Of a stretch of DNA of 64,000 bases, positions 5,003-17,931 are shown in pieces. How positions within the stretch are numbered: the stretch's first letter is position 1; every line of letters starts with the position of its first letter. The translations under genes were made by a program, and so were the position numbers. The DNA is from Chloroflexota bacterium. Lineage in GTDB: Bacteria > Chloroflexota > Limnocylindria > Limnocylindrales > CSP1-4. Under the pieces are notes generated by a model, which saw nothing but the letters and a program-made list of their open reading frames with translations, had not been told where the DNA came from and made no database searches. The stretch lies in contig SCUO01000064.1 of the NCBI GenBank assembly GCA_004297395.1, positions 1 to 64,000 of the forward strand. Reading direction: 5' to 3'.

Positions 5003-7033
5003 ATGACGTCCACAGCCGCGCCGCGCCCTGCGATCCTCCCCAACCTCGATCCCGTGCCGTACCCCGGCATCCCGGCGATCGTCGACGGCTCCGAGGCCGT
5101 CGCCCACGTCGAGAGCCGCCTGGCCGAGGTCGCCTGCGTCTATCCGATCACGCCCTCGACGACGATGGCTGCGGTCTACCAGGCCGCGGTCGCGGACGGG
5201 CGGACGGACCTCTTCGGCACGCCCCTCCGGTTCATCGAGCCCGAATCCGAGCACTCCTCGGCGAGCGCCGCCGAGGGCGCCGCGCTGGCCGGGGCGAGGG
5301 TCACGAACTTCACCGCCGGCCAGGGCCTCGTCCTCATGAAGGAAGTCCTGTTCGTGATCAGCGGCAAGCGCCTGCCGGTGGTCTTCCACGTCGGGGCCCG
5401 GGCCCTGACGAGCCAGGCCCTCAACATCCACGCGGGCCACGACGACATGATGGCCGTGGCGGACTGCGGCTGGGGCATGCTCTTCGGCCGCAACGCCCAG
5501 GAGGCGGCCGATCTCGCGGCCATCGCCCGGCGCGCAGCGGAGGCATCGGACACGCCCTTCTTCGTGGCCCAGGACGGCTTCCTCACGACCCACACCCTCG
5601 AGAACGTGCTCCTGCCCGAGGACGACCTGCTGCGCGAGTTCGTGGGCGATCCCCGCGACCACATCCGCGACCTGTTCGACCCGGCCGAGGCGCTCATGAC
5701 CGGCGTCGTCCAGAACCAGGACAGCTACATGAAGGGCCGGATCGGCCAGCGGGCCTACACCGACCGGATCCCGGCGATCCTCGAGGACGCCTACGACGAG
5801 TGGTTCCGGCTGACGGGCCGGCGCTACGGCGCCATCGACGCCTACCGGACCGAGGGCGCCGACGAGATTCTCGTCTCGATGGGCACCACCGCCGATACCG
5901 CGATCGCCGTGGTCGATCACCTCCGGGCCCAGGGCCGGCCCGTCGGCTGCGTCACGGTCACCGCCTTCCGTCCCTTCCCGGCCCGCGAGCTCATCGCCGC
6001 GCTCCGACACGCACGGACCGTCGGGGTCGTCGAGCGGACCGACGAGCCGCTCGCGGCTGCGAACCCCCTGACCCGCGAGCTCCGATCCGCGCTCTACGAC
6101 CTGGCCGCCGAGGGCGGCATGGTCCCGCGGGTGCTGTCCATCTCGGCCGGCCTCGGCTCGCGCGACGTCGCGGCCGGGGATCTCGTCGCGGTCTTCGACA
6201 AGCTCGCCGACCACGGCGAGGACGAGCAGCGCCACTACGTCGTGGGGATCAAGCATCCCCTGGCCCTGACCGTGGAGCCGGTGGACCTTCGCCCGGCCGG
6301 CGCCTACAGCCTTCGCGGCCATTCGATCGGCGGCTTCGGCAGCGTCACGACGAACAAGCTCGTGGCGACGCTCTCGGGCGAGCTCTTCGGCAAGCAGGTC
6401 CAGGCCTACCCGCGCTACGGCTCGGAGAAGAAAGGCCTGCCGACGACCTACTACCTCACGATCGCCGACGAGCCGATCCGCCTCCACGCCGAGCTGGATC
6501 GGGTCGAGTTCGTCCCCCTCCACGACGTCTCGGCCTTCGGGCTGGGCGACCCGCTCGCGGGGCTGGCCGATGGCGGCGATGTGTTCATCCAGTCGCGGCT
6601 CGCCGATCCCGAGGCCATCTGGGCCTCGATCCCGGCCCCGGCCCGGGCCGAGATCCTCGCCCGCCGGATCCGGGTGACGGCCCTCGACACGGCTGAGCTT
6701 GCTCTCCGCCACGCGCCCCGGCCGGATCTCCAGGTCCGGATGCAGGGCGTGGCCCTGGTCGGCGTGTTCCTCCGGGTCTCGCCGTTCGCGGCGCGGGCCG
6801 GGATGGACCGCCAGACGCTCCTCGCCGCCGTCCGGGAGCGCCTCGGGCGCTTCTTCGGCAAGCGCGGTGGCTCGGTCGTGGACGCCAACCTCGAGGTCAT
6901 CGCCGAGGCCTACGACGGGCTCATCGACGTGACCGCCGCGATCGGCGCCGGGAATGCGGGGACCGCCGGGGGGCCCGAGCCCGCCCCGTCGCTCACGCCG
7001 GCCGAGCCGGCCCTCCAGGGAGCACCGCGATGA
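5003..7033 (+). CDS. Pyruvate:ferredoxin oxidoreductase, N-terminal part (NifJ domains I-III, alpha plus gamma)
   Basis: A 676-residue protein equal to the first half of single-chain NifJ/PFOR. Residues about 20-260 form the pyrimidine-binding domain (ACVYPITPSTTM, EPESEHSSASAAEGAALAGA), 260-430 the transketolase-C-like domain, and about 450-660 the gamma domain (HSIGGFGSVTTNKLVATL). With the product of the third gene it should oxidise pyruvate with CoA to acetyl-CoA, reducing ferredoxin. ATG at 5003 gives an N-terminus that fits the family. The stop overlaps the CBS gene (ATGA). Related 2-oxoacids as substrate cannot be excluded, but all block similarity is to NifJ rather than to the KorAB type found at 14741-17751. 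Confidence 0.88.
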   Translation: MTSTAAPRPAILPNLDPVPYPGIPAIVDGSEAVAHVESRLAEVACVYPITPSTTMAAVYQAAVADGRTDLFGTPLRFIEPESEHSSASAAEGAALAGARVTNFTAGQGLVLMKEVLFVISGKRLPVVFHVGARALTSQALNIHAGHDDMMAVADCGWGMLFGRNAQEAADLAAIARRAAEASDTPFFVAQDGFLTTHTLENVLLPEDDLLREFVGDPRDHIRDLFDPAEALMTGVVQNQDSYMKGRIGQRAYTDRIPAILEDAYDEWFRLTGRRYGAIDAYRTEGADEILVSMGTTADTAIAVVDHLRAQGRPVGCVTVTAFRPFPARELIAALRHARTVGVVERTDEPLAAANPLTRELRSALYDLAAEGGMVPRVLSISAGLGSRDVAAGDLVAVFDKLADHGEDEQRHYVVGIKHPLALTVEPVDLRPAGAYSLRGHSIGGFGSVTTNKLVATLSGELFGKQVQAYPRYGSEKKGLPTTYYLTIADEPIRLHAELDRVEFVPLHDVSAFGLGDPLAGLADGGDVFIQSRLADPEAIWASIPAPARAEILARRIRVTALDTAELALRHAPRPDLQVRMQGVALVGVFLRVSPFAARAGMDRQTLLAAVRERLGRFFGKRGGSVVDANLEVIAEAYDGLIDVTAAIGAGNAGTAGGPEPAPSLTPAEPALQGAPR

Positions 7034-7533
7034 CCACCGAGCGCATCTCCGCCCCGATCGTCGGCGACCGGATGGCTCTCGAACCGATCGTCATCCGCGC
7101 CGACGCCTCGCTGACCGAGGCCGCCGCGCTCATGGACCATCGCCACATCCACGGCCTGCCGGTGGTCGACGCCTCGGGCTCGCTCGTCGGCGTCCTGTCC
7201 CAGACCGACCTCGCCCGGGCCCGCGGCACCGAGTACCTCTGGGCGAACTGGCCCGGTCTCGCGGTACGCCACCTCATGACCAGCCCGGCGATCATCGTCC
7301 ACCGATCGACGCCGCTGGCGATCGCCGCCCGGAAGATGGAGCGCCACAGGATCCATCGACTCGTCGTCGTCGACGACCTCGACGAGACGATCCCGATCGG
7401 CGTGCTCTCGATGACCGACCTCGTCCACGCCATCGCCGAGGAGACGGCCTCCGCCGCTGCCGCTGCCGCTGCCTCCGCCCCCGACGCCCCGTCCACCGCA
7501 TCCGGCACGACCCCGGGAGCTCCCGATGCCTGA
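7030..7533 (+). CDS. Two-CBS-domain protein inside the POR operon
   Basis: A 167-residue protein made of a CBS pair: CBS1 at about 5-65 (IVIRADASLTEAAALMDHRHIHGLPVVD is its start) and CBS2 at about 78-140 (IIVHRSTPLAIAARKM, HRIHRLVVVDD), followed by an alanine-rich tail. CBS pairs usually bind adenosine ligands (AMP, ATP, SAM) and pass a signal to a partner enzyme. The gene overlaps the POR halves on both sides (ATGA upstream, 8 bp downstream), so all three products are probably made together. A role in adenylate-sensitive control of POR is an inference from position only. No catalytic domain is attached. Confidence 0.85.
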   Translation: MTTERISAPIVGDRMALEPIVIRADASLTEAAALMDHRHIHGLPVVDASGSLVGVLSQTDLARARGTEYLWANWPGLAVRHLMTSPAIIVHRSTPLAIAARKMERHRIHRLVVVDDLDETIPIGVLSMTDLVHAIAEETASAAAAAAASAPDAPSTASGTTPGAPDA

Positions 7534-9262
7534 CGTCCCGACCACCGAGCGCGCCACCGCCACCCTCGTCCCGGCCGCGCCGAACCCGCATCCCGACGAC
7601 ACCCCCTTCGTCAAGGAGGCCGGCGAGCTCAAGGAGTCGCACTCCGATCGGCTGGCCACGATCGCGCCGCCGCTGCTCGACATCGATGCCTACGTCGAGG
7701 AGTTCGGGCGGAGCGTGGTGCCGGCCTATCGCCGCGGCGTTGCCGACCGCGAGCTGCCGGCCGACGCCGGCCTGGCCCGGAGCATCATCCCGCCCGCGAC
7801 CTCGGCGGTCCGCGACTTCTCGAAGCTGGCTCTCACGATCCCCGAGTTCATCGCCGAGAAGTGCGTCGGCTGCATGGCCTGCGTCAGTGCCTGCCCCGAC
7901 ACCGCGATCCTCGGCGTGGTCGTGCCCGAGCCCGAGCTCGACGGCCGGATCGGAACATTCAGCGCCAACCTGAACGGCACCGCGGAGCTGGCCACGACCA
8001 CGGCCCGCAGCCACTTCGCCGACACCCAGAAGTACGGCGAGGTCCCGGCCCGCAAGGGCAACGACCGCGGCTCGTTCGGGATCTTCGTCGACCCCGTGCA
8101 CTGCAAGGGCTGCGCCGAGTGCGTCGAGGTCTGCTCCGCCCTCGGCCACGACGCCCTGATCATGATCGACAAGGTTGCCGAGGAGCCGACCGGCGAATCG
8201 ACCCTCGAGCGCTACGACCGCGACATGCGCTTCTTCCGCTCGCTGCCCCCGACGCCCGACGTCTATCGCAACGAGAAGGCCCTGGCCGACCTCATGCTCG
8301 GCGAGCACGCCCACGGCTACGTCGGCGGCGCCGGCTCGTGCGCCGGCTGCGGCGAGGCGTCGGCGATCCGGATGGTCCTGGCCGCGACTCGCCAGATCCA
8401 CGGTCCCGAATCGATGGGCATCGTGGCCGCGACCGGCTGCAACTCGGTCTTCGGCGCGACCTACCCGTTCAACCCGTACCGGGTCCCGTGGACGAACTCG
8501 CTGTTCGAGAACTCGCCCGCGGTGGCCCTCGGCATCCGCGCCCGCTGGGATGCGGCCGGTCACCCCGAGCGCAAGCTGTGGGTCTTCGGCGGTGACGGGG
8601 CGATGTACGACATCGGCTTCCAGAGCCTGTCCCGGATGGTCGCCTCGGGCGCCGACATCAAGGTCCTCGTCCTCGACACCCAGGTCTATTCGAACACCGG
8701 CGGCCAGGCCTCGACGGCGACGTTCGGTGGCCAGGTCACGAAGCTCTCGGCCTACGGCAAGGCCCTCCACGGCCGGCCCGAACGGCGCAAGGAGCTGGCC
8801 CGGATCATTGCCGCGCACGGCGAGGTCTACGTGGCCCAGACGAGCCCGGCCCACCTCAACCACTTCTACCGCTCGGTCATGGACGCCAACGAGTACCCGG
8901 GACCGGCGGTCATCGTGGCCTACACGCCATGCATGCCGGAGCACGGCATCCCCGACGATGCCGCCACCCGCCAGGCCAAGCTGGCGGTCGAGTCGCGGGC
9001 CTTCCCGCTCTTCACCTACGACCCGCGCCGCGGCGAATCGATGGCCGAGCGGTTGTCGCTGCAGGGCAACCCGGCCCTCAAGGAGGACTGGTCAAAGGCG
9101 CCCGACGGCTCCCCGATCGACTTCCTGGCCTTCGCCCGGACCGAGGGGCGGTTCGCCCAGCACTTCGGCAAGGACGGCAGCGAGACGCCCGAGATCCTTG
9201 CCACCCAGGACGATCGCCTCGCCAACTGGCACACGCTCCAGGAGATGGCCGGCATCCGCTAG
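7526..9262 (+). CDS. Pyruvate:ferredoxin oxidoreductase, C-terminal part (ferredoxin plus TPP domains)
   Basis: A 578-residue protein equal to the second half of NifJ. Residues about 110-230 carry two 4Fe-4S motifs (CVGCMACVSACP and CKGCAECVEVC); from about 265 comes the thiamine-diphosphate domain with GSCAGCGEASAIRM, GCNSVFGATYPFNPY, the Mg/TPP motif GGDGAMYDIGFQSLSR and DTQVYSNTGGQAS, a strong NifJ signature. The region before the first cluster, where NifJ has its EKR domain, is shortened and divergent. It needs the 5003-7033 product for activity. Start ATG at 7526 overlaps the CBS stop. This is the last gene of the operon; 217 bp without an evident gene follow. Confidence 0.9.
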   Translation: MPDVPTTERATATLVPAAPNPHPDDTPFVKEAGELKESHSDRLATIAPPLLDIDAYVEEFGRSVVPAYRRGVADRELPADAGLARSIIPPATSAVRDFSKLALTIPEFIAEKCVGCMACVSACPDTAILGVVVPEPELDGRIGTFSANLNGTAELATTTARSHFADTQKYGEVPARKGNDRGSFGIFVDPVHCKGCAECVEVCSALGHDALIMIDKVAEEPTGESTLERYDRDMRFFRSLPPTPDVYRNEKALADLMLGEHAHGYVGGAGSCAGCGEASAIRMVLAATRQIHGPESMGIVAATGCNSVFGATYPFNPYRVPWTNSLFENSPAVALGIRARWDAAGHPERKLWVFGGDGAMYDIGFQSLSRMVASGADIKVLVLDTQVYSNTGGQASTATFGGQVTKLSAYGKALHGRPERRKELARIIAAHGEVYVAQTSPAHLNHFYRSVMDANEYPGPAVIVAYTPCMPEHGIPDDAATRQAKLAVESRAFPLFTYDPRRGESMAERLSLQGNPALKEDWSKAPDGSPIDFLAFARTEGRFAQHFGKDGSETPEILATQDDRLANWHTLQEMAGIR

Positions 9263-9479: not shown

Positions 9480-12389
9480 GTGATCGATCTCGGCATGGAC
9501 CAGGCCAGCCTCAGCCCGCGCTCCCTGCGCGCCCTCCAGCGGATCTCATCGATCCTGGCCGGGGCGACCATCGTCATCGGGACGGCCGCGATCGCCGGGT
9601 GGCTCGTGGGGATCCCGCTGGCCACGAGCTGGCTGCCCTGGCTCTCGCCGGTCCGTCCCAACGCGGCGCTCATCGCCGCGGCGCTCGGTGTCGCGTTCGT
9701 GCTGGCCACGCGGCCCGGCAGCCGCGCACGGTTGCTCGCCCAGGTGGTCGCGGCGGGCGCCCTTGCGCTGGCCGTTGCGACCGTCGCGGAATGGCTCGCC
9801 GGCCGCGACCTCGGCTTCGACAACCTCTTCTGGCCGGCATCGATGGAGGGCCCGTCCGAGCTCGCGTCCGAGCGGATGTCGCTCGGCTCGGCCATCGGGT
9901 TCGCCTGTCTTGCGGTGGCGGTCGTGGCGCGAGCCGACGGCCTGCACCTCGCCCGATTCGTCGAGCCGGCCGCGGTGATGACCAGCCTCTTCTCGGCCTT
10001 CGGCCTCGTGACCATCGTCATGGGCGCGGACCCCGAGTTCGCTGTCGTCGGCAGCCGCGTGTCCGTGCCCGGCGCGACCGCCGCCGGCCTGCTGGCCGTC
10101 GCCGTCCTGATCTCGCGGCCCGAGCACCGGCTCGTCCAGGTGCTGCTGGATCCGGGGCCGGCAGCCCGGTCGACTCGCGGCATCCTGCCGGCGGTAGCCG
10201 GATTCCCGATCGCCGCCTTCCTCGTCCTGAAGGCCTACGAGTCGGGTGCCATGACCCCGGCCGTGGCGGCCGTGGCGGCCTCGATATTCGGGGTCGCCTA
10301 CGCGGCCTGGCTCCTGGCCCGCGGCGCCCACGGCGTGGGCGAGCTCGTCCGCGAGGCGGTGGCCGCCCGCGAGGCCCGCGACCGGTTCTTCGACCTGACA
10401 GGCGACATCGTGGTGATCGTCGGCCCGGATGGCGTGATCCGGTACGTGAGCGCCGCAGCGCAGACGGCGCTTGGCTATGCACCGGCGTCCGTCGTCGGGC
10501 GCGCCTATGCGGACTTCTTCCCCCAGGAGGAGCACGACCGGCGGGTTGCGACCTTCACCCGTCTCCTGCGCTCGGACGAGGGTCACCGCCATGTCGAGCG
10601 CCGCATACGTCACGCCGACGGCTCATGGCGCTGGATCGAGTGGGCGACGAACCGCGACCCGGGATCAGGTGCCCTGTACGCCGTTGGCCGCGACGTGACC
10701 GAGCTGCGCGAGCAGCGCGATGGGCGCGAGCGGCTGGCCGCCGTGATCGAGCAGTCGAACGAGACCGTCGTCTTGAGCGACGCGGCAGGCACCGTCGTCT
10801 ACGCCAACTCGGCCTTCGAGCGGGCGAGCGGTCGGAGCGCGGCCGAGGTCGTCGGCCTCCCAGCGCGCGCCCTCGGGCGGGGCCCGCAGGAGCCCTCGAT
10901 CCTCATGGAGATTGGGCGGGCGATGGCCGCCGGCGAGGCGTGGCAGGGCGAGTGGACGGAACTCCGACCCGACAACTCGACCCGGACCGAGATGGTCCGG
11001 ATCACCCCGATCCGGGACGCGGCAGGCACGGTCTCCAACTGGGTCTACGTCGGCAACGACGTGACCGACCACCGCGCCGCCCAGGCGGCCTTCGAACGCG
11101 AGGTCCAGGAACGCGCGGACGTGGTCGCGGCGCTCGCGCGGCTGGATCTCTCCGGCCCGCTCGATTCGACCGCCGCCGACATCTGCGGCGAGCTGATGGC
11201 GCTGCCCGGGGTCGACTACGCGGCCGTAGTCGCGTTTGGTCGCAGGCAAGGCGAGGTCATCGCTTCGGCCGGGCTCGTGGATCCCGACCTGACCGCTGGG
11301 GCGATCGTCCCGGCCGACGCCACCCATCGGCTCCGGACTCGAGCCGAGCATGGCCCATGGACGTACGTGCTGACGCCCAACCTCCGGCGCGCGACGCACG
11401 ACCCGCTCGTCGCGGCCGGAATTCGGATGCTCGCCTGTGCGCCCCTTCGAAACGGCACCGACGTGATCGGGATCGTCCGAATAGGGACGCTCCGGGCGGA
11501 CCTCAACGAGGAGATGATCCGGCTGCTGCCGGCGGTGAGCGAGTTCGCGGCAGCCGCGGGCGGTGCGCTGGGTCCCGCGCTGGCGGCACGGACCGCCGAT
11601 GCGACGGTGCGAGCCAAGGTCCGAGCGTGGATCGACGGCGAGACGTTCTCGACGGTCTTCCAGCCGATCGTCGATCTGAGCTCGAGGGACATCGCGGGCT
11701 ACGAGGCGCTCAGCCGGTTCGAGGATGGGACGCGGCCCGACCTCGCCTTCGCCGAAGCCCATGCCGCCGGGCTCGGGCTGGACCTCGAGATCGCGACGCT
11801 CCGGACCGCCCTCCGATCCGCGCTGGACCTGCCGGCCGGGATCCCGCTCGATGTCAACGTCTCGCCCGCACTCCTGCTCGAGGGGGTGCGCCTGGCCGAG
11901 GTCCTCAGCGGCCGCGATCGGCCGATCGTCCTCGAGATCACCGAGCACGATCGGATCGACGATTACGGGGCCGTCCGGCATGCGATCCAGGAGCTCGGCC
12001 CGGACATTCGGCTGGCCGTCGACGATGCCGGCGCCGGGGCCGCGAACATGATCCACCTCGTCGAGCTCCGGCCGGACCTCGTGAAGCTCGACATCAGCCT
12101 GGTTCGCGGCATCAACATCGACCCGACGCGCCAGGCCCTCGTCGTGGGCCTTCGCCACTTCGCCACGACCGCCCGCTGCCGCCTCGTGGCCGAGGGCATC
12201 GAATCGTCGGCCGAGGCGACCACCCTTGCGGCTTTCGGGATCGAGTACGGGCAGGGGTTCTGGCTCGGCCGACCGGCCTCGGCCGCCGCGCTCGCCGAGA
12301 TGCCCGCGACGGTCACCCGGCCCGGCGGTCTCGCCTCGAGGCCCCGCGCCCGCGTTCAGGACAGCGATTCGGCGAGCCTGATCGCCTGA
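9480..12389 (+). CDS. Membrane PAS-PAS-GAF-EAL protein, probable c-di-GMP phosphodiesterase
   Basis: A 969-residue sensor. The first 280 residues contain about six to eight membrane segments (for example LAGATIVIGTAAIAGWLVGI). Two PAS domains follow (about 295-415 and 420-540; RYVSAAAQTALGYAPASVVG and VVYANSAFERASGRSAAEVV), then a GAF-like region (about 550-700), then an EAL domain (about 715-950). EAL catalytic landmarks are present: YEALSRF, DVNVSP, LEITEHD, a DDAGAG loop, VKLD and AEGIE, so it may hydrolyse c-di-GMP. No GGDEF domain is present. GTG 9480 or ATG 9495 could be the start. The 3' end overlaps the convergent anti-sigma gene by 34 bp. Confidence 0.88.
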   Translation: MIDLGMDQASLSPRSLRALQRISSILAGATIVIGTAAIAGWLVGIPLATSWLPWLSPVRPNAALIAAALGVAFVLATRPGSRARLLAQVVAAGALALAVATVAEWLAGRDLGFDNLFWPASMEGPSELASERMSLGSAIGFACLAVAVVARADGLHLARFVEPAAVMTSLFSAFGLVTIVMGADPEFAVVGSRVSVPGATAAGLLAVAVLISRPEHRLVQVLLDPGPAARSTRGILPAVAGFPIAAFLVLKAYESGAMTPAVAAVAASIFGVAYAAWLLARGAHGVGELVREAVAAREARDRFFDLTGDIVVIVGPDGVIRYVSAAAQTALGYAPASVVGRAYADFFPQEEHDRRVATFTRLLRSDEGHRHVERRIRHADGSWRWIEWATNRDPGSGALYAVGRDVTELREQRDGRERLAAVIEQSNETVVLSDAAGTVVYANSAFERASGRSAAEVVGLPARALGRGPQEPSILMEIGRAMAAGEAWQGEWTELRPDNSTRTEMVRITPIRDAAGTVSNWVYVGNDVTDHRAAQAAFEREVQERADVVAALARLDLSGPLDSTAADICGELMALPGVDYAAVVAFGRRQGEVIASAGLVDPDLTAGAIVPADATHRLRTRAEHGPWTYVLTPNLRRATHDPLVAAGIRMLACAPLRNGTDVIGIVRIGTLRADLNEEMIRLLPAVSEFAAAAGGALGPALAARTADATVRAKVRAWIDGETFSTVFQPIVDLSSRDIAGYEALSRFEDGTRPDLAFAEAHAAGLGLDLEIATLRTALRSALDLPAGIPLDVNVSPALLLEGVRLAEVLSGRDRPIVLEITEHDRIDDYGAVRHAIQELGPDIRLAVDDAGAGAANMIHLVELRPDLVKLDISLVRGINIDPTRQALVVGLRHFATTARCRLVAEGIESSAEATTLAAFGIEYGQGFWLGRPASAAALAEMPATVTRPGGLASRPRARVQDSDSASLIA

Positions 12390-14740: not shown

Positions 14741-15298
14741 CTAGACGGGCGTGAGCGCGCCTTCGAGCGCGGCGGCGTAGCCGGCCTCGAGGGCCGCCAG
14801 GTCGGCCGCGAGGATCTCCGGTCGCTTGGCCAGGAGCACGACCTCGAGCGCCCGTCGCACGGCGGCCAGGGGCACCAGCGGTCGCCTCGCGATGAGCGCC
14901 CCGAGGGCGACCACGCTGACCAGCTTGTCGTCGCCCGCCGTCCGGGCGAGGGCCGTACAGGGCACGGCCACGACCTCGATGTCGGTCCGCGACGGCTGGG
15001 CCTCGATGAGCGAGGTGTTCAGGACGAGCAGGCCCCGCGGGCCGACCGACGCCTCGAACCTGGCCATCGAGGGTGGGTTGAGGGCCACCACGGCGTCGGC
15101 CCGGTCGATGACCGGCGAGCCGATCGGCTCCTCGGCCACGATGACCGTGCACGACGCGGTCCCGCCGCGCATCTCCGGCCCGTAGGACGGGATCCAGAAG
15201 ACTTCGAGGCCCTCGGCCATCGCCGCCCGGGCCAGGATGTTGCCGGCGAACAGGATCCCCTGGCCGCCGAAGCCCGCGAAGATCGTCGAACGTTCCAT
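14741..15298 (-). CDS. korC: 2-oxoacid:ferredoxin oxidoreductase, gamma subunit
   Basis: A 185-residue subunit with the family opening IFAGFGGQGILFAGNILARAA and the PSYGPEMRGGTASCTVIV block that contacts TPP/CoA. Together with KorA, KorB and the ferredoxin-like subunit it forms a 2-oxoglutarate-type:ferredoxin oxidoreductase that can run either in an oxidative or a reductive TCA direction. It is the last gene of the kor operon and follows korB after a 2-nt gap. The acceptor substrate (2-oxoglutarate versus branched-chain 2-oxoacids) is not decided by sequence alone. Confidence 0.92.
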   Translation of the reverse strand: MERSTIFAGFGGQGILFAGNILARAAMAEGLEVFWIPSYGPEMRGGTASCTVIVAEEPIGSPVIDRADAVVALNPPSMARFEASVGPRGLLVLNTSLIEAQPSRTDIEVVAVPCTALARTAGDDKLVSVVALGALIARRPLVPLAAVRRALEVVLLAKRPEILAADLAALEAGYAAALEGALTPV

Positions 15299-15300
15299 CG

Positions 15301-16230
15301 TCAGGCCTCCGCCGCGGTGGCCGGCTCCAAGGTGAGGGACGAGGGCGCCGGGGCGGCCGCGGTCGTCGGTGCAGAAACCGCGGCGGCCGGCGCGGGAGGT
15401 GCCGCGGCAGCCTTGAGCCGGTCGACGAGGACCCCGGTCGGGTAGGTCTGGGCGACCGTCTGGAGGTGGTCGATGGACTGCTGGGCGGTCATGCCCCAGC
15501 CGACCGGGCAGTTGGACAGGACCTCGACGATGGCGAACCCGGCGTCGTGGACCTGAACCTCCATTGCCCGCCGGAGCATCGCCTTGAGCTTGCCGATGGA
15601 CGCCGCGTCGGCGAGCGTCCCGCGGGCCGCGTAGGCGACCCCGGGCAGGATCGCCAGCATCTCGGTGATCGGGATCGGGCCACCCATCAGGCGCTCGTCA
15701 CGGCCGGTCGGCGACGAGGTCGTCTTCTGGCCGAGGAGCGTCGTCGGGGCCATCTGGCCGCCGGTCATGCCGTAGATCCCGTTGTTCACGAAGACCGCGG
15801 TGATCCGCTCGCCGCGGGCGGCGGCGTGGACGATCTCGCCGGTCCCGATCGCGGCCAGGTCGCCGTCGCCCTGGTACATCAGCACGAACGCCTCGGGCCG
15901 GACCCGCCGGATGCCAGTCGCGACGGCCGGCGCCCGGCCGTGGGGCGCCTCGACCCAGTCGACATCGATGTAGTCGTAGGCGAAGACGGAACAGCCGACC
16001 GGTGCGACCGCGATCGTCCGCTCGGCCACGCCGAGGTCGGCGAGGAGCTCGGCCAGGAGCCGGTGGATCACGCCGTGGCCGCAGCCCGGGCAGTAATGGG
16101 TCGACTTGTCCTCGAGCAGCGCAGGTCGGCCGGCGATCACCCGCGCCGAGGCGGCGACGGAGGCGGGGGCCGGAGATGCTGCCGCACCGGCCGTCGCCTC
16201 CGGAGGGCGCTCGATGAGCGGGGTGGTCAT
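15301..16230 (-). CDS. korB: 2-oxoacid:ferredoxin oxidoreductase, beta (TPP) subunit
   Basis: A 309-residue thiamine-diphosphate subunit. The 4Fe-4S ligand motif CPGCGHGVIHRLLAE is near residue 48, PVGCSVFAYDYIDVDWVEA follows, the Mg/TPP motif YQGDGDLAAIGTGEIVHAA lies near 120 and VFVNNGIYGMTGGQMAPTT near 150. The C-terminal 50 residues are an Ala/Pro-rich tail not needed by the fold. ATG at 16230 overlaps the korA stop. The catalytic fold and motifs are of the KorB/VorB type rather than NifJ, so this is a second, separate 2-oxoacid oxidoreductase from that at 5003-9262. Confidence 0.94.
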   Translation of the reverse strand: MTTPLIERPPEATAGAAASPAPASVAASARVIAGRPALLEDKSTHYCPGCGHGVIHRLLAELLADLGVAERTIAVAPVGCSVFAYDYIDVDWVEAPHGRAPAVATGIRRVRPEAFVLMYQGDGDLAAIGTGEIVHAAARGERITAVFVNNGIYGMTGGQMAPTTLLGQKTTSSPTGRDERLMGGPIPITEMLAILPGVAYAARGTLADAASIGKLKAMLRRAMEVQVHDAGFAIVEVLSNCPVGWGMTAQQSIDHLQTVAQTYPTGVLVDRLKAAAAPPAPAAAVSAPTTAAAPAPSSLTLEPATAAEA

Positions 16231-17450
16231 CGCCAGACCTCCTGGAAGGCGGGCTCGTCGACGCCCTCGGGCGTGGACGCAGGACGACGCATGGAAGGCT
16301 CGATGGGCACCGAGCGGGCGGTTCGGCGCGGCGGTCGTTCGTCACGACCCGCCTCGGGCGGCCGCGGCGCGGTGATCGCCCACAGGTGGCGGAGCGAGAC
16401 GAGGACCTCGTCCGGCGTCGGGACCATGCCCCCGGTCCGGCCGTGGAAGGCGACCGGGGCACGACCCTCGACGGCCAGCCGGACGTCCTCGACCATCTGG
16501 CCGGCGGACAGCTCGACGACGAGGATCCCGCGGGCCCGCGACGCCAGCTCGGCGATCGGCGCGGACGGGAACGGCCACAGGCTGATGGGCCGCAGGAGGC
16601 CGGCCCGGAGGCCGCCCTCGCGGGCCCGGCGGATGGCCGTCCGGGCGACCCGGGCAGCCGTGCCGTACGCGACGATGACGAGCTCGGCGTCATCGAGGAG
16701 CTCCCCGGTCCAGCGCGTCTCCGCCGCCTCGATGGCCCGGTACTTGGCCTGGAGGTGCTCGTTGTGAGCCTCGAGGTCCTCCGGCTTCAGGTGGAGTGAG
16801 CGGACGACGCGGGGCCGGCGGCCGGTGGCGCCGGTGGCAGCCCAGTCGAAGACCTGACGGGCGGGGTTGCGGTAGGCCGGCACGACCGGCTCCATCGCCT
16901 GGCCCAGGGTCCCGTCGGCGAGGATGACCACCGGCGTCCGGAAGCGCTCGGCGATCTCGAAGGCATCGGCCACGAGGGCGATCGCCTCGGCGATCGAGGA
17001 CGGCGCCAGGACCGGCGTCCGGTAGTCGCCGTGACCGTGGCCCTTGACCATCTGGAAGTAGTCGCCCTGGCTGGGGCCGATCGAGCCGAGGCCCGGTCCG
17101 CCGCGCATGACGTCGACGAAGACGAGCGGGACCTCGGAGCCGGCCATGTACGACATGCCCTCGGCCATGAGCGAGGTGCCCGGCGAGGACGAGCTGACGA
17201 GGACCCGGGCGCCGGTGGAGGCAGCCCCGAGGCCCATGTTGATGGCGCCGAGCTCGCTCTCTGCCTGGACGAAGACACGCCCCAGCTCGGGCATCCGGCG
17301 GGCCATCCACTCGAGGATCTCCGCCTGGGGCGTGATGGGATAGCCGAAATAGGCGTCGCAGCCGGCCTGGATGGCCGCTTCCGCGATCGCCTCGTTGCCC
17401 TTCATGAGGACCCGCTCGGGGGCGGGCCTCGGCGGGACCGCACTGGCCAC
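16227..17450 (-). CDS. korA: 2-oxoacid:ferredoxin oxidoreductase, alpha subunit
   Basis: A 407-residue subunit with the pyrimidine-binding domain at the N-terminus (LMKGNEAIAEAAIQAGCDAYFGYPITPQ, then ESELGAINMGLGAASTGARV and SSSSPGTSLMAEGMSY) and the transketolase-C-like domain from about 255. It pairs with KorB across the TPP site. GTG at 17450 is one nucleotide after the ferredoxin stop and is preferred to the track start at 17492, which lies inside the ferredoxin gene; ATG at 17405 (MKGNEA) is another possibility. The last 50 residues are low-complexity. The stop overlaps the korB start. Confidence 0.93.
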   Translation of the reverse strand: MASAVPPRPAPERVLMKGNEAIAEAAIQAGCDAYFGYPITPQAEILEWMARRMPELGRVFVQAESELGAINMGLGAASTGARVLVSSSSPGTSLMAEGMSYMAGSEVPLVFVDVMRGGPGLGSIGPSQGDYFQMVKGHGHGDYRTPVLAPSSIAEAIALVADAFEIAERFRTPVVILADGTLGQAMEPVVPAYRNPARQVFDWAATGATGRRPRVVRSLHLKPEDLEAHNEHLQAKYRAIEAAETRWTGELLDDAELVIVAYGTAARVARTAIRRAREGGLRAGLLRPISLWPFPSAPIAELASRARGILVVELSAGQMVEDVRLAVEGRAPVAFHGRTGGMVPTPDEVLVSLRHLWAITAPRPPEAGRDERPPRRTARSVPIEPSMRRPASTPEGVDEPAFQEVWR

Positions 17451-17451
17451 G

Positions 17452-17751
17452 TCAGGCCCCCTTTCGCGGCGCGAAGACGGTGAAGACCGCATCCGGGCAG
17501 ACCCGCGCGCAGAGGGCGCAGCTCGTGCAGCCCGCGGCGTCGATCAGCCGAATCGGGTGGTAGCCGAGGGGATTGACGACACCGACGTCGAGGGCGAGGA
17601 CCCCGTGGGGACAGGCCCCGATGCACAGCTCGCAGCCCTTGCACCGATCGCTCGCGATGGCGAGGGGGGTGTACGGCGGCGTCTCGGCCGGTCGGTGAGG
17701 CGGGGGCGGCGACACCTTGCCGCCGGGGACGTTGCTGAGCGCGACGGTCAT
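17452..17751 (-). CDS. korD: 2x[4Fe-4S] ferredoxin-like subunit of the 2-oxoacid oxidoreductase
   Basis: A 99-residue protein with two cluster motifs, CKGCELCIGACPHGVL and CTSCALCARVCPDAVF, after a 40-residue Pro-rich leader. It should pass electrons from KorAB to free ferredoxin. First gene of the korDABC operon. ATG at 17751 is chosen; the track start at 18210 would run across the divergent hypC gene. A 180-bp region separates it from hypC on the other strand and presumably holds both promoters, although I could not pick clear boxes there. Confidence 0.9.
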   Translation of the reverse strand: MTVALSNVPGGKVSPPPPHRPAETPPYTPLAIASDRCKGCELCIGACPHGVLALDVGVVNPLGYHPIRLIDAAGCTSCALCARVCPDAVFTVFAPRKGA

Positions 17752-17931
17752 TGGACGCGCACCTCCGATCGAAGGGTGCGCCGGCAGCGACGAGCCGCGG
17801 GAGGGCCGGACGGCGCGAGGTCGCGGGCCGGAGGACCCGGCCCTGAGTGACTCGCGGCTCTCACCCGGGGGGACCGTTCGCGGGAGGCTGTCAAGCATGA
17901 GGCGTCCCCTGCGCTTCGGGAGGGGCTGAGC

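Follow-up and report, generated by a model that had tools for sequence, protein, structure and literature searches.

Why would a gene for a pair of CBS domains lie between the two halves of a pyruvate:ferredoxin oxidoreductase (PFOR)? PFOR connects glycolysis to acetyl-CoA and low-potential electrons. We analysed a stretch of 64,000 nucleotides (the window) that is part of a 3.08-Mb MAG of a Chloroflexota bacterium. A preliminary description of the locus had suggested that the CBS protein might be an energy-sensing subunit of a split enzyme.

The PFOR halves and the gene between them

The three genes are all on the forward strand. The N-terminal half of the PFOR (N-half; 5003-7033, with an ATG at 5003) has domains I, II, and III according to Pfam (POR_N, PFOR_II, and POR gamma). 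Next is the CBS-pair protein (7030-7533; 167 amino acids), which matches PF00571 twice (E = 5e-28). Its CBS domains are at residues ~11-64 and ~79-138, and it has an alanine-rich tail. The C-terminal half (C-half; 7526-9262) has an N-terminal arm, the EKR domain (IV), the ferredoxin domain (V), and the TPP domain (VI), with Pfam matches to Fer4 and TPP_enzyme_C. The arm (residues ~26-50, encoded by 7601-7675 on the forward strand) is a candidate site for docking of the CBS protein. The stop codon of the N-half and the start codon of the CBS gene share an ATGA (4 bp, 7030-7033), and the 3' end of the CBS gene overlaps the start of the C-half by 8 bp (7526-7533). The sequence and the Pfam matches thus agree with the preliminary description, which had reported a two-CBS gene between the halves of a split NifJ-type PFOR and overlaps of exactly these lengths.

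The same description had placed the cut between the gamma and ferredoxin domains. The cut does come after the gamma domain (III), but the next domain is EKR (IV), which precedes the ferredoxin domain (V). In an alignment with the PFOR of D. africanus, C-half residues 54-105 match from about residue 631 onwards, in the region of the EKR domain, so the cut is between domains III and IV, and the C-half comprises the EKR, ferredoxin, and TPP domains.

The functional residues of PFOR are present. The N-half aligns to residues 8-613 of the D. africanus enzyme and keeps the threonine and arginine of the pyruvate site as well as the glutamate that binds TPP. The YSNTGGQ loop, the four cysteines of the proximal cluster in domain VI, and the two CxxCxxCxxxC motifs in domain V are all retained. 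The invariant cysteines of the C-half are C113, C116, C119, C123, C193, C196, C199, C203, C272, C275, C305, and C469. (We take the roles of the pyruvate and TPP residues and of the cluster cysteines from established PFOR structures.) An AF2 model of the C-half has a mean pLDDT of 82, and its best matches in the PDB are PFORs. Both halves match TIGR02176, in complementary parts (the N-half covers model positions 3-613), with scores of 367.6 and 214.5 bits against a cut-off of 911. TIGR02176 describes a single chain of about 1,170 amino acids, and here there are two open reading frames; by sequence homology and domain order, rather than by chain count, we assign the enzyme to the NifJ family.

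The surrounding genes include other redox proteins. At the start of the contig (6-2900, forward strand) are hydrogenase genes: a small-subunit-like gene (Oxidored_q6), a NiFe large subunit, and, judging from its sequence, a maturation protease. The hydrogenase may be a redox partner of the PFOR. Directly downstream of the cassette (9480-12389, forward strand) is the gene for a large PAS-PAS-EAL protein that resembles c-di-GMP phosphodiesterases. About 5 kb downstream, on the reverse strand (14741-17760), consecutive genes for ferredoxin-like, alpha, beta, and gamma subunits encode another, multi-subunit 2-oxoacid:ferredoxin oxidoreductase. Several Chloroflexota relatives likewise have weaker relatives of both PFOR halves downstream. 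The genome also encodes components of E1-type 2-oxoacid dehydrogenases, so PFOR may not be the sole route for pyruvate, and we consider a regulated choice between the routes to be possible.

Presence, ancestry, and loss of the CBS gene

The preliminary description had held that absence of the CBS gene from most relatives with the same split would speak against a CBS subunit. Within the window's class, we found the C-half in 51 of 177 genomes, and the junction between the halves could be read in 47 of these 51. (In the other four, a contig end interrupts the locus, or the locus lies outside those that were read.) The CBS gene is between the halves at 44 of the 47 readable junctions, which is most of the relatives with the same split, so the idea of a dedicated CBS subunit survives this comparison. 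Together with the occurrence of the gene in other phyla, this also rules out a local oddity of one MAG. The three junctions that lack the gene are in genomes G007 (L008/L034), G025 (L015), and G013 (L022). In L022, what is left of the CBS gene (1100-1600) runs into the C-half, the start of which is degraded, and the PFOR there looks decayed or misassembled. In a congener (L025/L032 of G002), the C-half is interrupted, with an internal stop and two separate matches; this could be a pseudogene or an assembly error.

For genomes outside the class, we combined a profile search (one genome per species) with mapping of open reading frames at the best 80 of at least 579 places. Nearly all of the data are from MAGs. 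Among these best 80, a single PFOR family has four architectures. Single chains are mainly from Acidobacteria. Two chains with nothing between them are found in Kryptonia, Calditrichota, Gammaproteobacteria, Anaerolineae, Planctomycetes, Bdellovibrionota, and others. The arrangement of the window, in which the CBS gene separates the halves, is found in Chloroflexota, Rokubacteria, Methylomirabilota, one WOR-3 genome, and MAGs labelled as Deltaproteobacteria and Acidobacteria. Two Myxococcota MAGs (L101 and L097) have the fourth architecture, a single open reading frame in which the N-half continues at its C-terminus into the CBS pair. The C-half gene follows the fusion in both MAGs, with a 4-bp ATGA overlap in L101. 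Besides these two, we found no fusions of the N-half to a CBS pair among 284 genomes of the Myxococcota phylum.

The aligned halves are separated by a gap of bimodal length: ~0-250 bp without the CBS gene and ~350-525 bp with it. Single-chain PFORs of this family never have a CBS gene with them in the sample that we surveyed. In Methylomirabilota, the phylum of the Rokubacteria genome, the gene is at 16 of 22 readable junctions. Because some lineages with split PFORs have the gene and others do not, the CBS protein appears to be a lineage-specific subunit that can be lost, rather than a component that every split PFOR has. Eight single-chain forms from Acidobacteria make up one clade that nests among the split forms, so a fusion or a fission occurred within this PFOR family. 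(A sequence labelled as Bacillota lies inside that clade and may be from a misbinned contig.)

Where did the CBS gene come from? On the PFOR tree, its presence requires 9 changes, and the clustering of the architectures far exceeds that of shuffled labels. In a tree of CBS pairs, the 28 pairs from between the halves and the 2 fused pairs form one clade (support 95/89), versus 21 other CBS pairs that were drawn from the genomes sampled. These trees are most simply read as a single origin with later transfer or loss. By its place in the tree, the CBS part of the Myxococcota fusion is from the same CBS family as the unfused pairs. Given the single clade, the tree does not support separate recruitment of unrelated CBS proteins in each lineage. 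Flanking genes are common to close relatives and hardly any are common between phyla, so the cassette is not carried by wider synteny. Lower-scoring CBS genes elsewhere in five loci (L054, L062, L066, L068, and L077) belong to other CBS families and are not linked to PFOR.

Some close relatives have lost the CBS gene (L034, L015, and L077). In L034, the start codon of the CBS gene is now in frame with the core of the C-half, and the CBS gene and the arm were lost together. A similar deletion in L059 removed the CBS gene and the arm, and in both loci the catalytic core is left. In a neighbour of L059 (L055), an internal part of the CBS gene is deleted. L066 and L077 have many flanking genes in common, at ~80-96% identity, yet they differ by the CBS gene. 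Since the gene is missing from numerous split PFORs in this family and was lost in some close relatives, it is dispensable for catalysis. Where present, it is under purifying selection (pN/pS of 0.2-0.35 versus congeners).

Ligand sites, a candidate docking arm, and a proposed three-part enzyme

The ribose-aspartate motifs of the window's CBS protein are GVLSQTD in the first CBS domain (CBS1) and GVLSMTD in the second (CBS2). Across the PFOR-associated CBS pairs (PFOR-CBS), the corresponding motifs are near-invariant (GV[LI]SxTD in CBS1 and G[VI][LIF]SxxD in CBS2). In 22 diverse pairs, the invariant or near-invariant residues include G54, S57, T59, and D60 in CBS1; G124, S127, and D130 in CBS2; and H109-R110. 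G-h-h-S/T-x-x-D, which is G-h-h-S-x-T-D in CBS1, is the established signature for ribose binding in Bateman modules that bind adenosine. Since this signature is kept in each domain, both predicted ligand sites look usable.

The arm of the C-half has the motif K-x2-G-x5-H (K30, G33, and H39 in the window). This motif is present at 29 of 44 loci with the CBS gene, versus 2 of 40 loci without it. Chloroflexota, Rokubacteria, Methylomirabilota, WOR-3, and the fused Myxococcota have the arm in common. The 2 CBS-less loci with the arm are recent losses of the CBS gene in Methylomirabilota, and the 15 CBS-bearing loci that lack it belong to one Chloroflexota clade. Among phylogenetically independent pairs, about 5 are concordant for the arm and the CBS gene and 0 are discordant (corrected sign test, p ~ 0.06). 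Given this p value, and because the motif was picked after the sequences had been inspected, the association is suggestive only. Also, one deletion can remove the adjacent CBS gene and arm without any functional link between them. In the AF2 model of the isolated C-half, the body matches PFOR structures, residues 1-24 are disordered (pLDDT below 50), and the arm is poorly ordered (pLDDT ~51-68). In this model, the poorly ordered arm fits an element that needs a partner, which is no proof of one.

We propose, with a probability of about 0.65, that this is a three-part PFOR: two catalytic chains plus a dedicated regulatory CBS subunit that binds adenine nucleotides at the junction of domains III and IV. 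In terms of the NifJ fold, one catalytic chain would comprise domains I-III and the other domains IV-VI, and the CBS subunit would most likely sit where a single-chain PFOR goes from III to IV. The C-terminus of the N-half, which is the site of the fusion in the two Myxococcota, would hold it in place, and in most lineages the arm of the C-half probably would as well. Adenine nucleotides, which are the presumed ligands, would bind at the two conserved sites. Binding would shift the N-half relative to the EKR/ferredoxin/TPP half, and this shift would tune the oxidation of pyruvate to acetyl-CoA and reduced ferredoxin to the energy charge. As for the sign of regulation, our guess is that activity at low energy charge is likeliest. 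(We infer complex formation, arm docking, the identity of the ligand, and this sign.) In an AF2 model of the L101 fusion, which was built on an alignment of N-half rows, the part with PFOR domains I-III is good; the CBS part has a pLDDT of ~34-60 because the alignment there had two rows. Comparative genomics offers good support for what the preliminary description had suggested, namely a dedicated subunit of the nucleotide-sensing type: the N-half::CBS fusions, the single CBS clade, the kept ligand motifs, and the co-occurring arm all point this way. Somewhat more tentatively, we lean towards viewing it as an undescribed kind of allosteric PFOR, with two NifJ-type chains bridged by an adenylate-sensing CBS subunit, present in several phyla, fused in two genomes, and repeatedly lost, sometimes along with its docking arm.

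Other explanations for the CBS gene differ in how much of this regulation they keep. The protein might regulate PFOR and sense something other than AMP, ADP, or ATP, such as Ap4A, NAD(P)(H), CoA esters, or SAM. AMP and ATP are not the only ligands that CBS pairs accept, and diverse adenosyl ligands are among the others. AcuB, which is the CBS/ACT adaptor of the deacetylase AcuC, binds Ap4A (PMC13039410). But the sequence data separate no ligands, and the ribose-aspartate motif suits any adenosine moiety; we consider a different ligand to be unlikely, if well within reach. A role without ligand-dependent regulation, in which the CBS protein clamps the two chains together or helps them to assemble, is decidedly improbable. 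CBS pairs dimerise readily, and a clamp would suit the position at the split, the arm on the C-half, and the fact that single-chain PFORs in the sample never carry the CBS gene. However, the ligand-site residues of both CBS domains are among the best-conserved positions, and many split PFORs manage without a CBS protein.

CBS proteins are common, and this one has been lost from some relatives, so might it be a hitchhiker in the operon that is merely co-expressed and has another target? We give this little credence. The CBS pair is fused to the N-half in two genomes, the pairs form one clade across phyla even though the flanking genes are unrelated, the gene is always in the slot between the halves, and its presence correlates with that of the arm.

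If the three-part, nucleotide-regulated PFOR is correct, then the conserved CBS subunit would be an energy sensor, similar to the gamma subunit of AMPK, within a central enzyme, and energy status may directly control PFOR in several unrelated bacterial groups. There is a natural series of enzymes (single chain, split, split with CBS, CBS fused, and CBS deleted), so the idea is directly testable.

Comparison with known systems

Our literature search, from which subscription papers were mostly absent, found nothing that links CBS domains with PFOR or NifJ and no report of the control of PFOR by a CBS subunit. Chain H of PDB entry 9sr9, along with related entries (8), is a chain of a solved complex, named only "Dehydrogenase", with a CBS pair that matches the window's CBS protein (P0002). 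The complex may be a further example of an oxidoreductase that has a CBS subunit.

The window's enzyme resembles the NifJ-type PFORs of D. africanus and M. thermoacetica (TIGR02176) in the order of domains I-VI, in the pyruvate and TPP residues, and in having three [4Fe-4S] sites. Those enzymes are one chain, whereas this one is two, with the cut at III/IV, no equivalent in the C-half of domain VII of the D. africanus PFOR, and a putative CBS subunit added. The four-subunit PFORs and related oxidoreductases (PorABCD) are also multi-chain 2-oxoacid:ferredoxin oxidoreductases, but their cut points are different, and we know of no CBS subunit in enzymes of that type.

Among regulators, AcuB is like PFOR-CBS, as we propose it, in that a CBS pair controls a partner enzyme via an adenosine-type ligand. 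But AcuB contacts its partner through an ACT domain and has a different target, while PFOR-CBS is a bare pair that is sometimes fused to the enzyme. CBSX1 and CBSX2 are chloroplast proteins with a single CBS pair that are proposed to modulate thioredoxins (PMC7921703). Like PFOR-CBS, they are stand-alone pairs with a proposed redox target, and CBSX structures (4gqy and 3sl7) are among the best PDB sequence matches of the window's CBS protein. Unlike PFOR-CBS, they are neither in an operon with an oxidoreductase nor fused to one, and the partner differs. In the CBS-domain pyrophosphatase, AMP and ADP inhibit and ATP and diadenosine polyphosphates activate (PMC11172384). There, a CBS pair regulates a metabolic enzyme, which is what we propose for PFOR-CBS, but the CBS domains are within the catalytic chain of a hydrolase instead of being separate, and the pattern is opposite to our guess of activity at low energy charge. 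We found no orthology of PFOR-CBS to AcuB or to CBSX-type adaptors; by analogy, we propose that it works as they do.
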